Origin: Bacteroides fragilis NCTC 9343 | Lineage (GTDB): Bacteria > Bacteroidota > Bacteroidia > Bacteroidales > Bacteroidaceae | Direction: 5' to 3' | Assembly (NCBI RefSeq): GCF_000025985.1 | Contig: NC_003228.3 | Coordinates: 2,852,001-2,916,000, forward strand | DNA length: 64,000 nt | Shown here: positions 5,048-64,000 of the stretch, in pieces | Layout: each line of letters opens with the position of its first letter | Position numbering within the stretch: position 1 is the stretch's first letter | Program-made: the position numbers and the translations under genes | The notes under the pieces: model-generated | Told to the model about the DNA's origin: nothing | What the model saw: only the letters and a program-made list of their open reading frames with translations | Databases searched by the model: none

Positions 5048-7384
5048 ATGAACTATATGATACAGCATTATCTCAAAACAGCAATACGCAACCTGCTGAA
5101 GTATAAGACACACAGCATTATTTCTGCCATTTGTCTTTCCGTTGGTATGACTTGTTTCAGCATCATCCACTTTTTTATCAATGAAATAGATGGAGCATCA
5201 CGTAACATGCCCAATTTCGAACAAAGGATTTCAATCCGGATGATCAATTCCAACCATGAAGTAGGAGGATGGGGGTGGAGTCTCAATTCTTCTGAGATCC
5301 GGACCCTGACAGAACATCCCATACCGGGTATTAAGCAAATCTGCTTCCACTCTTTCCAAAGAGAAGCCGAAGTTGTATTCATCAATAGGGAGCAGGAAGA
5401 AAAGCCTTACATTATTTCATATATGGATACTGATCCTAATTTCTTTTCACATTATAATGCATCCTTCTTATATGGCAATGCTCTTCCCACAACTCCGGAA
5501 GAAGTTGTGTTGTCCGAAAGTTGTGCCCGTAAAGTATACGGAAAGAGCAACCCGGTAGGCACATTACTGAAAATAGTCAAGTTGAAGGAAAGCGAAAAAG
5601 ATAAAAGCACATACTATAAAGTTGTCAATGTTATCAGAAATCTCCCCAAAACACTAGATGTTGAAACAGATATCTATTTCTCTCATTTGAGAGAGGGGAA
5701 CAGACAACAAGGATATATCACAGAAGGTACACTGGAAACAGCAGACGGATTGAATAAAGCCAATGAAAGCCTAAAGGGGATAACAACTCTTCATAATAAT
5801 GAAATGGCATATTTCATTGCGAACAAAGAAGCTGACTCGTATCACGATCCGCAGCGAATGATAGGCATAGCATTCATTACCTTCTTATCCTCTCTGATTC
5901 TGTTATCGGGTATGATAAACTTTCTAAAGTTCATCATACAGTCATTCTACAACCGTAATCGTGAACTGGCCCTGCGGAAAAGTCTGGGTGCCAGCCCCAA
6001 AAGTTTATTTGCCCTTCTATTCACCGAAGCTTTCTGGATGCTGACATTTTCTTTATTGTTCTCGCTGGTCTTATCCGAATGTACCTGTTTACTACTGACA
6101 ACCTATATTCCGCCTAAAGAAATGATTCCAATAGATATCCAAACTCTATATGGCATTCAAGTTAAACTTTATATAGGGCTGTTACTGATCTGCACCCTTG
6201 TAATGCTATATCCCATCCGGCGTTTGCAACGGTCCGGTCTTGCCGGGCACATGAAAACTAACAGCCACCGGCACCTCTTTCGCAACATCATGATGTGCGT
6301 ACAGCTATGTGTATGTATCTTTTTTCTGGGTATGAGTATCGCTATACATTTATTCAATAGTGTAGGAAGCGTTTTGTACCTTCCTCTATCAGACAAAGAA
6401 ACAAATTCCACGCTTTGCTTTGAAATGAATAGTGTTACTCTCGGCAAAAATAAGGATGCGATTTTATCACAAATAAAGATGTTGCCAGGAGTGGAAAATA
6501 TCAGTTCAGCTTTGATGAGCGGCAACTATAATTCGTTTCTGACCAGTGACTATGAGTCTGCCGATCACCGTACTCTCACTGTCAGAGTCAGACAAGGAGA
6601 TCCCAGCTACTTCCAGTTCTTTCGGATTCCTTTCCGGGGAGAGATCGTCGAACCTCATACAAGTAACGTGGTTTACATCAGCGAAGCCTTTCAAAAGCAG
6701 TTGGAAAATGATTCTGTAAGCGGAAATGTAAAATTAGGTAAAGAGAACTATCGGATAGCAGGTACATACAAGGCTTGTTACGGGGAGAACATCTCAGAAC
6801 ACAATCAATACAATATTTCTGTTTTCTTCCCGACTGAAGAAGCATCCGTAATTTATATCCGTTTTCGTGACGATATCAGTTTTGGTAAAGCCAAATCAGA
6901 AATAGAAAGGGTATGCCGTAATTACGTCCCAGAGTCATTGCCACTCGATATACAACGACTGGATATAAGAAGAAGTACAACACAAGGTATCAGAGACCTG
7001 ATGGGCGATGCCTCACTGCTATTAGGCATCATAAGTGCTCTTCTGGTTATACTGAGCATATACTCAGCTATCTCTATGGACACAGTCAGCCGGCAGAAAG
7101 AAGTTGCTATTCGCAAAATAAACGGCGCAACTCCGAAAATAATTGCTTTGATGTTCGGAAAAGCATATATAATCCAATTCATACTGGCCTATACCATCAC
7201 TTATCCATTATTAAGGTTACTTGTGATAGACATAACCAAGGATAGCCCGATCAGCAGTATTACCGGATTTACATGGGGGATTTACCTCTTCATTCTGATA
7301 GGTTTACTTATCTTTGTAACAACAGCCTATAAAATCTACAGAATCATGCATCTCAATCCGGCAGAAATAATAAAAAACGAATAA
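5048..7384 (+). CDS. ABC transporter permease, MacB/FtsX family
   Basis: A 778-residue permease, the fourth in the cluster. It has an N-terminal helix, an extracytoplasmic domain, helices near residues 275-385, a second soluble domain and a final FtsX block carrying KEVAIRKINGA. It ends NPAEIIKNE. The ATG at 5057 (MIQHYLK) aligns better with the paralogues than ATG 5048, so the protein may be three residues shorter. It lies 10 bases after the previous permease and 28 bases before the ATPase, consistent with one operon. Each of the four permeases presumably forms dimers or heterodimers with the single ATPase; which pairs form is not visible from sequence. Confidence 0.9.
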   Translation: MNYMIQHYLKTAIRNLLKYKTHSIISAICLSVGMTCFSIIHFFINEIDGASRNMPNFEQRISIRMINSNHEVGGWGWSLNSSEIRTLTEHPIPGIKQICFHSFQREAEVVFINREQEEKPYIISYMDTDPNFFSHYNASFLYGNALPTTPEEVVLSESCARKVYGKSNPVGTLLKIVKLKESEKDKSTYYKVVNVIRNLPKTLDVETDIYFSHLREGNRQQGYITEGTLETADGLNKANESLKGITTLHNNEMAYFIANKEADSYHDPQRMIGIAFITFLSSLILLSGMINFLKFIIQSFYNRNRELALRKSLGASPKSLFALLFTEAFWMLTFSLLFSLVLSECTCLLLTTYIPPKEMIPIDIQTLYGIQVKLYIGLLLICTLVMLYPIRRLQRSGLAGHMKTNSHRHLFRNIMMCVQLCVCIFFLGMSIAIHLFNSVGSVLYLPLSDKETNSTLCFEMNSVTLGKNKDAILSQIKMLPGVENISSALMSGNYNSFLTSDYESADHRTLTVRVRQGDPSYFQFFRIPFRGEIVEPHTSNVVYISEAFQKQLENDSVSGNVKLGKENYRIAGTYKACYGENISEHNQYNISVFFPTEEASVIYIRFRDDISFGKAKSEIERVCRNYVPESLPLDIQRLDIRRSTTQGIRDLMGDASLLLGIISALLVILSIYSAISMDTVSRQKEVAIRKINGATPKIIALMFGKAYIIQFILAYTITYPLLRLLVIDITKDSPISSITGFTWGIYLFILIGLLIFVTTAYKIYRIMHLNPAEIIKNE

Positions 7385-29569: not shown

Positions 29570-30703
29570 TAAATGTATCCTCCGTAATCAAATACCTTCT
29601 TCTCTGGTGGTAACTAACCTATTTTTTTACATTCTTACTTAGCCTTTTGTTATTCTGCCTCCTTAATGCCGAACCTAATCAAAATAAGGGTCTATTTCCC
29701 ATAAAATAGATTTCTCAGTAAAAGCAGTATGATACATTCCTTATCCCAAAGGCAGAAAAGGATAAAAAGAATACAACACATACTATATAATAGAAACACA
29801 ATGAAGCTAACCCTTATTGAAGATACCAATGAATATTCATAGCCTTATCATGATGCTAACAGAATATCATAACCTGTATCATAATGTCATTTTCATACAT
29901 AAAGTATCTATATTTTCTGGAATAGAAAAAAAATCAGCCTAACAAAACGCACATATAATACTGTAGATCAATTATTTATAATAAATTAAAGCCTCTCAGA
30001 ATTGAATAATTTCATTTAAACGGGCATTTATATGGAAATAATGCAATATTTTGGCATTATAGCCTATATGTAAAACTATGAGTGACAAATTTTACTTGAA
30101 GGGTTCTCCAGTGACAAGAAAAAATAGATAAATATCTACTATTTGTTGCATATTTAACGATAGGATATGACAGCTGTGAAGTATGTATGTAACACAATAT
30201 ACATTCACAAAAGTAATATCTTTGTTTTTATACAATAAAATCATGAATTACATTTGTGATTACAGCTTCATTACATATATACATTTACAATTGTGGATGT
30301 AATAGGAGAGTGGTTAACACTTATTTTAATACCAGCTAATGATTAAATACTCAATAAGAAAAAAACAATATATCAATCTAATATTCAGGTAATAGTCCAA
30401 GATACAGAAACATTTGTGATATAAAGAGTATCAAGGTATATGGTAACGCATAAAAGTGATTGTTTTTCAGACATATACAAGTTTGATATAAACTAAAAAT
30501 TTAATGGATATTACAATCATACACATCGATACCCAAAATATTAAGAGCAATATATCACACTCTCTTTACAAATCTAAAACATTAATATTATATTTGTAAT
30601 TTGCTTTTGTGATTTTTATTTTTTACTTTTGTGCGAAGCTAAATAAATGCTTTACTTTTGTGAATCAACTAATAAGTCATACATTTGTAAATCTTCAAAG
30701 GAT
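29570..30703. other. AT-rich gene-free region upstream of the HTH regulator (about 1.1 kb)
   Basis: No ORF here has coding character. The left two-thirds is AT-rich with only short inverted repeats. From about 30190 onward it holds many copies of a TTTGTGA/TTTGTAA word, several within TAnnTTTG boxes: 30217-30224, 30249-30256, 30589-30596, 30624-30631, 30653-30660 and 30680-30687, with a reverse-strand copy ATTCACAAAAGTAAT at 30203-30217. A short open frame (ATG 30243, 19 codons) follows one of these boxes; I cannot say whether it is used. The region could hold a small RNA or the operators of the HTH protein. Confidence 0.6.
30622..30687 (+). promoter_or_regulatory. Repeated TTTACTTTTGTG/TACATTTGTAA boxes before the HTH gene
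   Basis: TTTACTTTTGTG occurs at 30622-30633 and again at 30651-30662, 29 bases apart, and a third related box TACATTTG lies at 30680-30687. All three contain a TAnnTTTG -7-type core. The closest is 17 bases before ATG 30704. Direct repeats of this kind next to a Cro/CI-type gene suggest operators for self-regulation as well as promoters. Confidence 0.45.
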
Positions 30704-31159
30704 ATGGAAATAAAAGATAGGATTAAAATTATCATGGAAAAAGAGAATATGGCTTCCGGTGCTTTCGCCGAAAGCATAGGTATTCAGCAATCCACTCTCT
30801 CTCATATTTTGAATGGGCGGAACAACCCCAGTTTGGATGTTATTATGAAAGTACATCAGAAATATAACTATGTAAAATTGGAATGGCTGTTGTATGGGCA
30901 AGGCAATATATCCGAAGAAAGCATCCAATCAGCTTCTGATTTTCAACCTTCCTTATTTGCTGAGAATGCCATAATTCCGCCCAACGGGACAGTTACTCCG
31001 GAAAATCGCAGGGAAATGCCGTTAGAAAGTTCCCAAAACACCCCGAAAGAGATTGTAAAACAAGAAATTAGATACATAGAAAAGCCTTCCAGAAAAATAA
31101 CTGAAATAAGAATTTTCTTCGATGATAATACGTATGAGACATTCAGAGGAGAAAAATAA
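30704..31159 (+). CDS. Helix-turn-helix regulator, Cro/CI (XRE) type
   Basis: A 151-residue protein with an N-terminal HTH_3/XRE domain (about residues 1-65): IKIIMEKENMASGAFAESIGIQQSTLSHILNGRNNPSLDVI. The recognition helix follows the AESIGIQQSTLS segment. The C-terminal half has no recognised domain and includes an ordered region ITEIRIFFDDNTYETF. The start is ATG 30704: the longer frame from 30647 runs back through the promoter boxes. No neighbouring phage or toxin gene was seen, so it is probably a house regulator of unknown target. Confidence 0.8.
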   Translation: MEIKDRIKIIMEKENMASGAFAESIGIQQSTLSHILNGRNNPSLDVIMKVHQKYNYVKLEWLLYGQGNISEESIQSASDFQPSLFAENAIIPPNGTVTPENRREMPLESSQNTPKEIVKQEIRYIEKPSRKITEIRIFFDDNTYETFRGEK

Positions 31160-60662: not shown

Positions 60663-61658
60663 TTAAGGCACTTCTACCTTATTCAATATTTTGCTGACAA
60701 TTTCATCAGAAGTCACATTGCTAGCCTCCGCTTCATATGTCAATCCGATACGATGACGAAGTACATCATGCGCAACAGCACGTACATCTTCTGGAATCAC
60801 ATAGCCACGACGTTTGATAAACGCATATGTACGTGCAGCCAAAGCTAAATTAATAGAGGCACGAGGTGACCCACCGAATCCAATCATATCTTTCAATTCT
60901 TTCAAATCATATTTTTCCGGATAACGTGTAGCAAACACGATATCTACAATATAACGTTCAATCTTCTCGTCTAAATAAACTTGACGAACCACTTTACGTG
61001 CCTCGATAATCTCTTCAGCCTTCAAGATAGGCTTCACATTAAATTTCTCTCCATTGATATTTTGGCGAATAATTAATTTCTCCTCTTCCTGTTTCGGATA
61101 ATCAATAATCACCTTTAACATAAAACGGTCTACCTGAGCTTCCGGAAGCGGATATGTACCTTCCTGTTCTATCGGGTTCTGAGTAGCCAAAACAAGGAAC
61201 GGTTCAGGTAACAAGAATGTTTCTTTACCAATAGTTACTTGACGTTCCTGCATTGCTTCAAGCAAAGCACTTTGAACTTTAGCGGGAGCACGGTTTATTT
61301 CATCAGCCAATACAAAATTAGCAAAAATCGGACCTTTCTTCACTTGGAAACTTTCATCCTTCTGACTGTAAACCATCGTACCGACAACGTCAGCTGGCAA
61401 TAAGTCAGGCGTAAACTGTATGCGGCTGTATTTTGCATCGATCAACGAGGCCAATGTCTTAATGGCCAAAGTTTTTGCCAAACCCGGTACACCTTCAAGC
61501 AGCACGTGTCCATCAGAAAGTAGTCCGATTAACAGTGACTCTACCAAATGTTTCTGACCCACAATGATTTGGTCCATGCCTGTTGTAAGATTGGTAACGA
61601 AAGCACTCTGTCTTTCAATCCGCTCGTTCAATTCGCGGATGTCAATTGATTCAGCCAT
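60663..61658 (-). CDS. moxR: MoxR-family AAA+ ATPase
   Basis: A 331-residue AAA+ ATPase that heads the Bat operon. The Walker A is GVPGLAKT near residue 55, Walker B is FVLADEINRAP, and sensor 1 is LATQNPIEQEG, all typical of MoxR. MoxR proteins are chaperone-like ATPases that act on VWA-domain proteins. The start of the operon is supported by -7 box TACTTTTG at 61741-61748 and a -33-like TTG at 61769-61771. Confidence 0.95.
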   Translation of the reverse strand: MAESIDIRELNERIERQSAFVTNLTTGMDQIIVGQKHLVESLLIGLLSDGHVLLEGVPGLAKTLAIKTLASLIDAKYSRIQFTPDLLPADVVGTMVYSQKDESFQVKKGPIFANFVLADEINRAPAKVQSALLEAMQERQVTIGKETFLLPEPFLVLATQNPIEQEGTYPLPEAQVDRFMLKVIIDYPKQEEEKLIIRQNINGEKFNVKPILKAEEIIEARKVVRQVYLDEKIERYIVDIVFATRYPEKYDLKELKDMIGFGGSPRASINLALAARTYAFIKRRGYVIPEDVRAVAHDVLRHRIGLTYEAEASNVTSDEIVSKILNKVEVP

Positions 61659-61740
61659 AAATACTAATTATTTTATTGTTTAATTTTCTTTTTAATAATA
61701 TGAGCAAAGCCTATGTTGTAAGGCTTTTTAATTTCGATTC

Positions 61741-61771
61741 CAAAAGTACACTATATCTTTAACCATTCCAA
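61741..61771 (-). promoter_or_regulatory. Promoter of the moxR-bat operon
   Basis: The -7 box TACTTTTG (61741-61748) and a TTG (61769-61771) are separated by 20 bases on the minus strand, giving a leader of about 75 bases before moxR. Confidence 0.5.
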
Positions 61772-61852
61772 CTAATTTTTATTAAAAAACAATGCGAAGT
61801 CTTTAGATTAAGGTACTTTCATACGCTTTTGTATTTGTATAACATAAACACA

Positions 61853-61888
61853 ACACCCGAATGTATAAACTTGTATACACCCGGGTGA
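61853..61888. repeat. Pair of ACACCCGGGTG-type palindromes, 24-nt spacing
   Basis: ACACCCGAATGT at 61853-61864 and ACACCCGGGTGA at 61877-61888 are related to the triple element at 47122-47181 and lie 24 bases apart, close to the 23-nt period seen there. They lie 13 bases after the end of the HU-LysM gene. Confidence 0.6.
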
Positions 61889-61901
61889 TCACATTAGACT
61901 G

Positions 61902-63353
61902 TCATTTTTTAACCAATTCCGGTATTTTAAGTACAGTACCATACGGTACATTATTCGGATTCTTAATCACTCCCCGATTATGTTTAACGATATAGGGCCA
62001 TAAATCTTTTGTACCATAAAACCGTAGAGATACCCTAGTCAGAGTTTCACCTTCTTTAATTGTATAAGTCGCCTTAGTACCGGTAATTGTATAATTCACT
62101 GAATCCGGCTTGACTGGGATTGACACTGTTTTAGTGCTCTTTTCCCGGGATACCGATTCACTTTCTGAAGTTTTATCTACTTTCTCCGACACATTGACAC
62201 GCTCAGACATCTGTTTTATCTCCTGTTGATTCGGAGTCTTTGCTACCACCTTGACAATAGTATCCGCTTTTGCAACAGTATCCAATGGAATTTCCCGTAT
62301 CGGTTCTTTTTTCTCTACAGTCTCTGTGGTTATTGACTGTTCCGATTCTTTTTTAGAAAACAAATCCGGATAATAAATAAAAACTAATGCTGCACCGCAA
62401 AGCGACATAACAACTACTATAATTACTATTAAGTAAGGAACAGGAGATTTTTGGTTTTCCGGTTTAACTTCCTTCTTTGGGCGCTTTTCCTTTTTTACAG
62501 GGATAGTCGATACTTCTGCTTTTTGAATCTCCCGTGCTATAATTTCTTCGGCAGTCAATCTAGGAGAACCTTCGTCTTCTATCACCTTTTTTAAATTATC
62601 TGTAGTTTCTTGCCCTGTATCTCCAGTGAACTGGATTGGCTCTTCAGAATTTTCCACTACTTTATCCAATCCACCCTCTTCTCGAACCTCAGCAATGGAT
62701 GAACCTTCTACTACAGCTTCACTACCTTTATGTATGCTAACATCTTCAACAGTTTCAAGTATGTCAATATCATCTACAACCTCTGTCCTTTCGGATTCCT
62801 TCATAACTTCCGAAACGTCTTCTGCAACTTCCACATCTGACGACACAACATCCTGCCCTTTTGAGGTTTCCGGTTCTACTTTCCCATTCGCCTCTGTTTC
62901 AACCACCTTCTCCTCTGCTTTTGCTTCCTCTCTCTCTATAGTCTCTGTTATTAACGGAGGCTCAGTTGTTTCGGATATATTCCCTGATTCTTCCTCCAAT
63001 TCCTCTATTGGCGTATCTTCCAAGACTGTATTCTCATTCAGCACTACTGTTTCGAAATGTGAAAAAGGTCTATTTATGATATCTCTTAAAGAAGGGTCAG
63101 GAGTAAAAGAAATCTTAGTATGTCCCTCTATTTTAATACGTTCACCCGTATTGACATTTACACTTTCACGACTATTGACCCCTATCAATTTGAATGTACC
63201 CAATCCTTTGATTTTCACATATTGATCAGCGTCCAAAGCTTGTTCTATCAATAAGAAAAACTCCCGGACGAAAACATCAGCATCTTCTTGAGAAACCTCA
63301 TGTCTGTTAACCAGTAGTTCAACAAGATATTGTATAGTCAACTTTTCATTCAT
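61902..63353 (-). CDS. HU-family DNA-binding domain fused to a membrane helix and LysM
   Basis: A 483-residue protein. Residues 1-95 form an HU/IHF-type DNA-binding domain (KIKGLGTFKLIGVNSRESVNVNTGERIKI, with the IHF-like DPSLRDIIN end). A long acidic, low-complexity linker (about 105-270) and a basic patch (VKKEKRPKKEVKPEN, 286-300) lead to one transmembrane helix at about 306-328. The C-terminus has a LysM peptidoglycan-binding domain (about 428-478: TYTIKEGETLTRVS...YGTVLKIPEL). The basic patch before the helix places the N-terminus in the cytoplasm and the LysM outside. It might link the nucleoid to the cell wall. It overlaps the next upstream HU gene by 8 bases. Confidence 0.82.
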   Translation of the reverse strand: MNEKLTIQYLVELLVNRHEVSQEDADVFVREFFLLIEQALDADQYVKIKGLGTFKLIGVNSRESVNVNTGERIKIEGHTKISFTPDPSLRDIINRPFSHFETVVLNENTVLEDTPIEELEEESGNISETTEPPLITETIEREEAKAEEKVVETEANGKVEPETSKGQDVVSSDVEVAEDVSEVMKESERTEVVDDIDILETVEDVSIHKGSEAVVEGSSIAEVREEGGLDKVVENSEEPIQFTGDTGQETTDNLKKVIEDEGSPRLTAEEIIAREIQKAEVSTIPVKKEKRPKKEVKPENQKSPVPYLIVIIVVVMSLCGAALVFIYYPDLFSKKESEQSITTETVEKKEPIREIPLDTVAKADTIVKVVAKTPNQQEIKQMSERVNVSEKVDKTSESESVSREKSTKTVSIPVKPDSVNYTITGTKATYTIKEGETLTRVSLRFYGTKDLWPYIVKHNRGVIKNPNNVPYGTVLKIPELVKK

Positions 63354-63636
63354 ACGGAAATGTTTCTTTAAACTTATCTTTTAATATAGGACTCGGCTTA
63401 AACGCCAGTACTAACTTGGGTGGAACCAACAGTCGCAACTTAGTGACGGGATTGATGACAATACGTTCTGCTTTCTTTTTTACCTCAAAAGTACCAAATC
63501 CCTGTATTCCTATAGCATTGCTTTCCTGCAATTCCTGAGTAATATCAGACAGCAGAGATGTTATCAGTTCAGAAGTATATTTTGTATTATACCCCAATCT
63601 GCGAGAAAGTTCAGAAGTAAATTCTTTATTATTCAA
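63346..63636 (-). CDS. HU-family DNA-binding protein, small
   Basis: A 96-residue HU/IHF-like protein: MNNKEFTSELSRRLGYNTKYTSELITSLLSDITQELQESNAIGIQGFGTFEVKKK. The GFGTFEV strand and a basic region (KKKAERIVINPVTK) of the DNA-binding arms are present. It overlaps the HU-LysM gene by 8 bases, so the two are coupled and may form mixed dimers. It is not one of the long HU-beta proteins. The gene lies 75 bases after rimO. Confidence 0.85.
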   Translation of the reverse strand: MNNKEFTSELSRRLGYNTKYTSELITSLLSDITQELQESNAIGIQGFGTFEVKKKAERIVINPVTKLRLLVPPKLVLAFKPSPILKDKFKETFPYE

Positions 63637-63710
63637 AATCCTACAATTTTAAAAATATGTTGCTATATTAATCAATCCAGATCAAAAAACAAATTCTTCA
63701 GGAAATATAT

Positions 63711-64000
63711 TTAAATTATTTCACCAAAAAGATCGAATTCATCGGAATCAATCACTTGTACTTGATAAAAGTTACCAATCATTAAATTATCCCCTTCACA
63801 CCTTATTAAAACTTCAGGATCTACTTCCGGAGAATCAAACTCTGTACGCCCAATGTAATATTCACCTTCTATACGATCAATAATGACTTTCATTTTTTGT
63901 CCAACTTTTGATGCACTTAATTCAGTAGAAATTCCTTGCTGAATAGCCATTAACTCATCCAATCGTGCCTGTTTTAGCTCCTGAGGAATAGAGTCTTCAT
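63711..64000 (-). CDS. rimO: Ribosomal protein S12 methylthiotransferase RimO (C-terminal part)
   Basis: The frame continues past base 64000, so the start is outside the window. The visible 96 residues contain the linker ending KQARLDELMAIQQGIS and the C-terminal TRAM domain (KMKVIIDRIEGEYYIGRTEFDSPEVDPEVLI, FYQVQVIDSDEFDLFGEI). The ending matches RimO, the radical-SAM enzyme that adds a methylthio group to Asp of ribosomal protein S12; MiaB is the alternative, but its TRAM tail differs. The radical-SAM Cys motif is not in view. Confidence 0.85.
   Translation of the reverse strand, partial: EDSIPQELKQARLDELMAIQQGISTELSASKVGQKMKVIIDRIEGEYYIGRTEFDSPEVDPEVLIRCEGDNLMIGNFYQVQVIDSDEFDLFGEII

Follow-up and report, generated by a model that had tools for sequence, protein, structure and literature searches.

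Two adjacent genes of Bacteroides fragilis NCTC 9343 may encode a tether between the nucleoid and the cell envelope, a reading to which we give an even chance. The genes lie in a 64,000-nucleotide (nt) stretch of DNA (contig NC_003228.3, positions 2,852,001 to 2,916,000; hereafter the window, numbered from its first letter). One of them, at 61902–63353 (−), is a single frame of 483 amino acids (aa) that joins an HU domain, through an acidic linker and a membrane helix, to a LysM domain; the other encodes a soluble HU of 96 aa (hereafter the partner). In the proposed mechanism, the partner would pair in the cytoplasm with the HU domain of the longer protein, giving an asymmetric heterodimer of the IHF kind. 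A proline-tipped, basic, DNA-bending arm would come, in Bacteroidales, from the partner and the dimerisation body from the fused chain, which by a long, flexible acidic arm would hold the pair to the inner membrane (N-in, C-out). In the periplasm, another flexible stretch, of ~90 residues, would carry a LysM domain that binds the glycan strands of peptidoglycan. DNA held by the heterodimer would thereby be attached to the wall, possibly for nucleoid positioning or segregation. To our knowledge, chromosome organisation and segregation in Bacteroidota are little known. If true, a direct protein connection of a DNA-binding dimer with the wall would be a physical principle new to this phylum, and two genes are few enough for deletion, tagging and reconstitution in a laboratory Bacteroides strain, which makes the question directly testable.

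We analysed the fused protein by profile search, structure prediction and fold comparison. The HU domain (aa 6–94) exceeded the curated PF00216 cut-off in a Pfam scan (1.5e-18), and AlphaFold2, given a 43-sequence alignment, predicted HU and LysM (421–482) folds, with a helix at 305–327 and, between the HU fold and this helix, a long linker of low confidence. Foldseek and VIA-align matched the first domain to HU/IHF and the last domain to LysM chains, and the predicted C-terminal fold has the beta-alpha-alpha-beta arrangement of a LysM. At the profile level, the LysM is marginal: its site scored below the PF01476 cut-off in the Pfam scan and above it, at 22.4 bits, in a genome-wide LysM search, and an NCBIfam LysM protein model matched aa 377–479 (7.4e-8), yet far below its own cut-off. 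Within the acidic linker, a short helix is predicted at window 62517–62552 (aa 268–279), and some of its residues recur in the Bacteroidaceae-type alignment. Profiles, AlphaFold2 and fold matches thus bear out the anatomy proposed in the original prediction, which had read HU, acidic linker, basic patch, membrane helix and LysM from the bare sequence and had named structure prediction of the N-terminal domain, here an HU fold, as a check.

Conservation and origin of the gene pair

Is the fusion a local accident? A contig scan of close relatives yielded 56 loci. In a phylum sample searched with a Bacteroidaceae-type profile (threshold 1e-12), 40 of 296 genomes matched, 33 of them with a long frame (3 from the genus and 30 from family f23); the seven f17 genomes of that sample have frames of 95–171 aa with an HU-only match. 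Names carried by some relatives of one f23 protein (Rhodohalobacter, Balneolaceae bacterium) identify f23, which is far from Bacteroidales, as Balneolaceae. Within the class, the phylum sample gave no match outside the window's family at 1e-12. An order sample searched at 1e-9 matched in 57 of 247 genomes, and other Bacteroidales families were among them; a class search matched in 223 of 295 genomes, mostly through ordinary small HUs, with no frame above 200 aa outside the order among the matches listed. Beyond the phylum, the scope was that of the close-relative contig scan and of the 120 matches listed in each of the protein searches.

Besides the contig-scan loci, we read those of 30 of the 33 long-frame phylum-sample genomes and of 27 further genomes from the order search. 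HU and LysM share one frame at 111 of the 113 loci examined, with hidden Markov models built from an alignment that holds many of these loci but not L101–L127. The exceptions are L064, a Parcubacteria HU with no fusion, and L054 (B. xylanisolvens XB1A), a broken frame. Near 6001–7673 of L054, HU and LysM lie in separate frames, owing to a sequencing error or a real break. The small overlapping HU gene, a side remark in the original prediction, proved general: a same-strand HU gene stands just upstream at all 111 fused loci. That prediction had also proposed a domain search in other Bacteroidetes genomes, taking absence of the fusion outside a few strains as the mark of an accident; with 111 of 113 loci fused, the accident is rejected.

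For the counts of arms, charges and topology we dropped three copies, namely L009 (94% identical to the window protein) and L072 and L073, which share the HU domain and the final 60 residues with L033 and L043; L057 and L058, whose arms are degenerate, and L049, with a run of N in its HU domain, were counted all the same. Each of the resulting 108 loci has exactly one partner, whose gene ends somewhere from 34 nt ahead of the fused HU match to 11 nt into it (overlap in 58 of 108). The Balneolaceae proteins have the same order of parts as the Bacteroidales ones, and right after the HU domain Bacteroidales, like most of the Balneolaceae sequences that were read, carry the motif N-x-P-[FY]-[AS]-x-[LFM]-E in this form or nearly so. 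Past the LysM match, the proteins extend by 45–69 residues in Balneolaceae (L074–L100), 21–31 in other Bacteroidales (L101–L127) and 2–7 in Bacteroidaceae-type loci. An ordinary annotated HU with an incidental fusion and no special role would agree with the source names ("HU family DNA-binding protein", "LysM domain-containing protein", "nucleoid DNA-binding protein" and the like). However, the pair is conserved from Bacteroidales to Balneolaceae, and conservation is 0.12 in the linker as against 0.74 in HU, signature and LysM; we hold this explanation to be highly improbable.

We then compared fused, partner and ordinary HU domains in a tree of 91 sequences and 95 columns spanning Bacteroidales and Balneolaceae, with 38 pairs (38 fused chains and 38 partners) and 15 ordinary HUs (5 from the own genome and 10 of the 22 small-HU loci L136–L157). 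The three classes formed three separate groups (branch support 100/97, 97/86 and 99/93, respectively), and the two-gene unit therefore looks old and of single origin. Finer forks and direction are unsure because the columns are few and the root serves for drawing only. The pair would be either ancestral, with losses, or transferred as a pair.

Arm asymmetry, topology and the case for a tether

Which chain could contact DNA? Arm positions were placed through the N-P motif of an own-genome HU and are named by what we take to be standard HU numbering (R55, R58, R61, P63, K67 and K70). Ordinary HUs carry the arm-tip proline in 13 of 15 cases. In the Bacteroidales partner it is present in 80 of 81 sequences, and the domain's mean net charge is +6.1; the arm itself has a mean net charge of +4.74 in this partner, +3.33 in ordinary HUs (n=15) and −1.58 in the Bacteroidales fused chain. 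Judged by tip proline and basic arm, the Bacteroidales partner resembles a canonical DNA-bending HU and the fused chain does not. At least one chain is proline-tipped in 107 of the 108 pairs, the partner being so in each of them. Across 52 contig-scan loci, once RimO distances are allowed for, fused HU and partner still show correlated distances (partial r 0.73, a value reached in none of 500 permutations); the LysM-partner (0.52) and within-chain HU-LysM (0.35) correlations are lower and also beat every permutation. The correlation of fused HU and partner distances fits two chains that meet, with kinship only roughly controlled.

In 106 of the 108 homologues the mean hydropathy of the membrane helix reaches 1.6 or more, and the window HU domain has no signal peptide ahead of it by sequence reading. 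Of the two helix flanks, the N-side one is the more positive in 85 of 108 homologues and the less positive in 14, with 9 ties, so that flank charge agrees in most of them with the N-in, C-out topology that the original prediction had drawn from the basic patch. By group (109 rows, L009 included), N-in-type flanks occur in 46/55 Bacteroidaceae-like, 25/27 Balneolaceae and 15/27 other Bacteroidales sequences; "Bacteroidaceae-like" is our own label and includes one Prevotellaceae-titled and one Bacteroidales-titled locus. The first linker ranges from 45 to 366 residues, its sequence conservation ends at about aa 117, and acidic residues make up on average 31.5% of it in Balneolaceae and 27.7% in each of the two Bacteroidales groups.

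Several findings weigh against a tether: (i) in the Bacteroidales fused chain, none of 81 sequences has proline at the arm tip (78 have V or I), 76/81 have V at the R55 position and 71/81 have E at the K67 position, and the HU domain has a mean net charge of −1.0 versus +8.9 in ordinary HUs (n=15); (ii) in Balneolaceae, 27/27 fused chains and 27/27 partners have the arm-tip proline, with a mean net charge of −0.1 each, and the odd one is the partner (mean net charge about 0, arm Y-N-P-H-Y) and the fused chain keeps an NPQTG-type arm (arm mean net charge −0.70), so that there is no fixed division of labour across the family; (iii) the distance correlations are not free of shared ancestry, because all three exceed every permutation; (iv) flank charges oppose the N-in, C-out topology in the 14 homologues mentioned above, of which 9 fall in the 27 non-Bacteroidaceae Bacteroidales; and (v) in the Pfam scan the LysM (PF01476, aa 430–478) scored 18.6 bits against a cut-off of 20.9, and its closest matches are the Escherichia coli potassium-binding protein Kbp and LysMs of phage and injection-system baseplates, which makes its ligand uncertain. 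Most in doubt are DNA contact by the fused HU of Bacteroidales and the ligand of the LysM.

The fused HU fold could instead be a protein–protein module only, docking the partner or a different HU at the membrane, perhaps for storage or regulation, with the chromosome not attached to the wall. Lost arm contacts and negative mean net charge of the Bacteroidales fused domains favour such docking, as does the strong fused HU-partner correlation, and the acidic linker could act as a competitor of DNA for binding to the partner. On the other hand, a basic, proline-tipped partner in Bacteroidales and the proline kept in all 27 Balneolaceae fused domains are as expected if DNA contact matters, and we consider docking rather unlikely. 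The resemblance to Kbp raises another alternative, quite unlikely in our view, in which the LysM binds a different ligand or acts as a scaffold contact and the membrane-bound HU has a different periplasmic job.

For the nucleoid–envelope tether itself, the architecture read in the original prediction stands, and the fusion is widely conserved; its use of the fused HU as the DNA-binding part is not supported in Bacteroidales, where most arm contacts are lost and the mean net charge is negative. Judging by arm residues and charge, the membrane-bound HU is there not a standard DNA binder and is a poor candidate for binding alone. A tether is still the best reading, and it is most tenable if, within the heterodimer, the upstream HU makes the DNA contacts.

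Neighbouring genes and coordinates

The conserved element is the HU pair, more than its neighbourhood. The own genome has 16 HU-profile matches, among which this pair is the only adjacent one; the partner gene, directly upstream, overlaps the fused gene by 8 nt and keeps the arm-tip N-P. Upstream lies rimO, preceded outside the window by ftsY (both named by reading the sequence). Downstream, a hairpin is followed by a moxR-type ATPase gene, a DUF58 gene, and then BatD- and VWA-type genes; terminator-like sites number 3 in 61600–64000 (shuffles: mean 1.1, standard deviation 1.4). Among contig-scan loci, mostly Bacteroidaceae, RimO is present in the fetched stretch of 53/53 and FtsY in 52/53, counted without L054, L064 and the copy L009; the FtsY miss, L047, ends short upstream. 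Six wider loci from other families differ: L160 alone keeps ftsY-rimO upstream, L162 keeps the DUF58 gene and its neighbours downstream and has polyphosphate kinase upstream, and L158, L159, L161 and L163, where part of the neighbours was scanned, have neither set beside the pair. A part for ftsY-rimO in the mechanism is rejected, as they are kept in only one of these six loci.

The wider loci also bear on a regulator that senses the envelope, in which the LysM would read the state of the wall and the HU pair would alter DNA topology or transcription near the membrane. The topology may resemble that of one-component membrane regulators and the LysM is conserved, but the binding specificity of HU/IHF-type proteins is low to moderate and, besides the partner, no neighbour gene is constant in the six wider loci read. 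We regard such a regulator as very unlikely.

A plasmid-labelled record of Bacteroides finegoldii (NZ_OY725888.1:12817-17234) holds BatD, AAA ATPase, VWA, DUF58 and HU genes, with a match of 78.6% identity over 55% of the query; the label is as recorded, and the record may be a chromosomal fragment. Elsewhere in the window, at 30600–30687 (+), three head-to-tail exact matches to TTTG-N18-22-TANNTTTG, which we take to be the Bacteroides promoter pattern, precede a putative small helix-turn-helix gene that starts near 30706. Three matches are reached in 36 of 100 window shuffles, a figure that covers their number and not their clustering.

Table 1. Features of the HU pair and its flanks in window coordinates.
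Feature	Position	Strand	Remarks
HU – acidic linker – membrane helix – LysM protein	61902..63353	-	483 aa
HU domain, aa 6–94	63072..63338	-	Arm SVNVNTGE; most ordinary HUs here RNPxTG
Family signature, aa 94–101, approximately N-x-P-[FY]-[AS]-x-[LFM]-E	63051..63074	-	Directly after HU domain
Acidic linker, aa 102–285	62499..63050	-	Predicted mostly disordered; model and homologue composition
Basic patch N-terminal of membrane helix, aa 286–302	62448..62498	-	Sequence; homologue flank charges
Single predicted membrane helix, aa 305–327	62373..62441	-	Hydropathy and model helix
Second linker, aa 328–420	62094..62372	-	Predicted mostly disordered (model) and periplasmic (from topology)
LysM-fold domain, aa 421–482	61908..62093	-	Profiles and predicted fold
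Soluble partner HU, 96 aa	63346..63636	-	TTG start; PF00216 7.7e-22
Terminator-like hairpin, 14 pairs	61854..61887	-	Just 3' of fused gene; hairpin search
rimO 3' end (TRAM domain)	63711..64000	-	Next gene upstream; named by reading the sequence

Comparison with known systems

Reportedly, HU-CCDC81 – membrane – SPOR proteins of Bacteroidetes were described in 2017 by Burroughs, Kaur, Zhang and Aravind, who are said to have predicted a role in chromosome partition. The own genome encodes such a protein of 353 aa (L065:826-1887, −), with PF18175 and PF05036 in one frame and a membrane helix by sequence reading. Like the fused protein studied here, this design places an HU-type domain in the predicted cytoplasm, followed by one membrane helix and a C-terminal domain of wall-binding type. 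It differs in its HU clade, in having SPOR in place of LysM and, by reading, in lacking a long acidic linker; in addition, the own-genome copy has no PF00216 match beside it in the HU-profile search. Membership of the window protein in the HU-CCDC81 clade is rejected (PF18175 17 bits against a cut-off of 35), and the fused protein has no SPOR match up to an E value of 1 in the Pfam scan, nor at its locus in the genome SPOR search. Among 12 genomes (11 HU-LysM carriers and G275, which is not known to be one), PF18175 matches in 11 at 1e-3 and in 5 above the cut-off, SPOR being outside that check; the weak matches may be ordinary HUs, because E. coli and other controls also match below the cut-off. 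Could both designs serve one cell? We can offer only tentatively, and with some doubt, the fuller view of a dedicated chromosome-to-wall staple, in which an old HU pair predating the Bacteroidales/Balneolaceae split (or one transfer) would act beside an HU-SPOR tether and so provide sidewall and septal attachment of the nucleoid.

Two further systems are close. IHF alpha/beta, among the best profile and fold matches, likewise consists of two different HU-fold chains, as in the heterodimer proposed here. In contrast to IHF, one chain here is membrane-bound and, in Bacteroidales, without an arm-tip proline, and neither chain comes near the NCBIfam IHF cut-offs. Proteins of the Kbp/YgaU type (NCBIfam PRK11198, PDB 7pvc) have the LysM closest in sequence and fold; here, however, the Pfam scan gave no BON domain, and the window protein is membrane-anchored and HU-fused. 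Among the literature matches listed, no HU-LysM protein was found by title or start of the abstract, the 2017 HU survey lying outside that scope. Among these systems, the protein files as a further case of an already known design, in which a membrane helix joins an HU domain to a domain of wall-binding type; the new element is its dedicated soluble partner.
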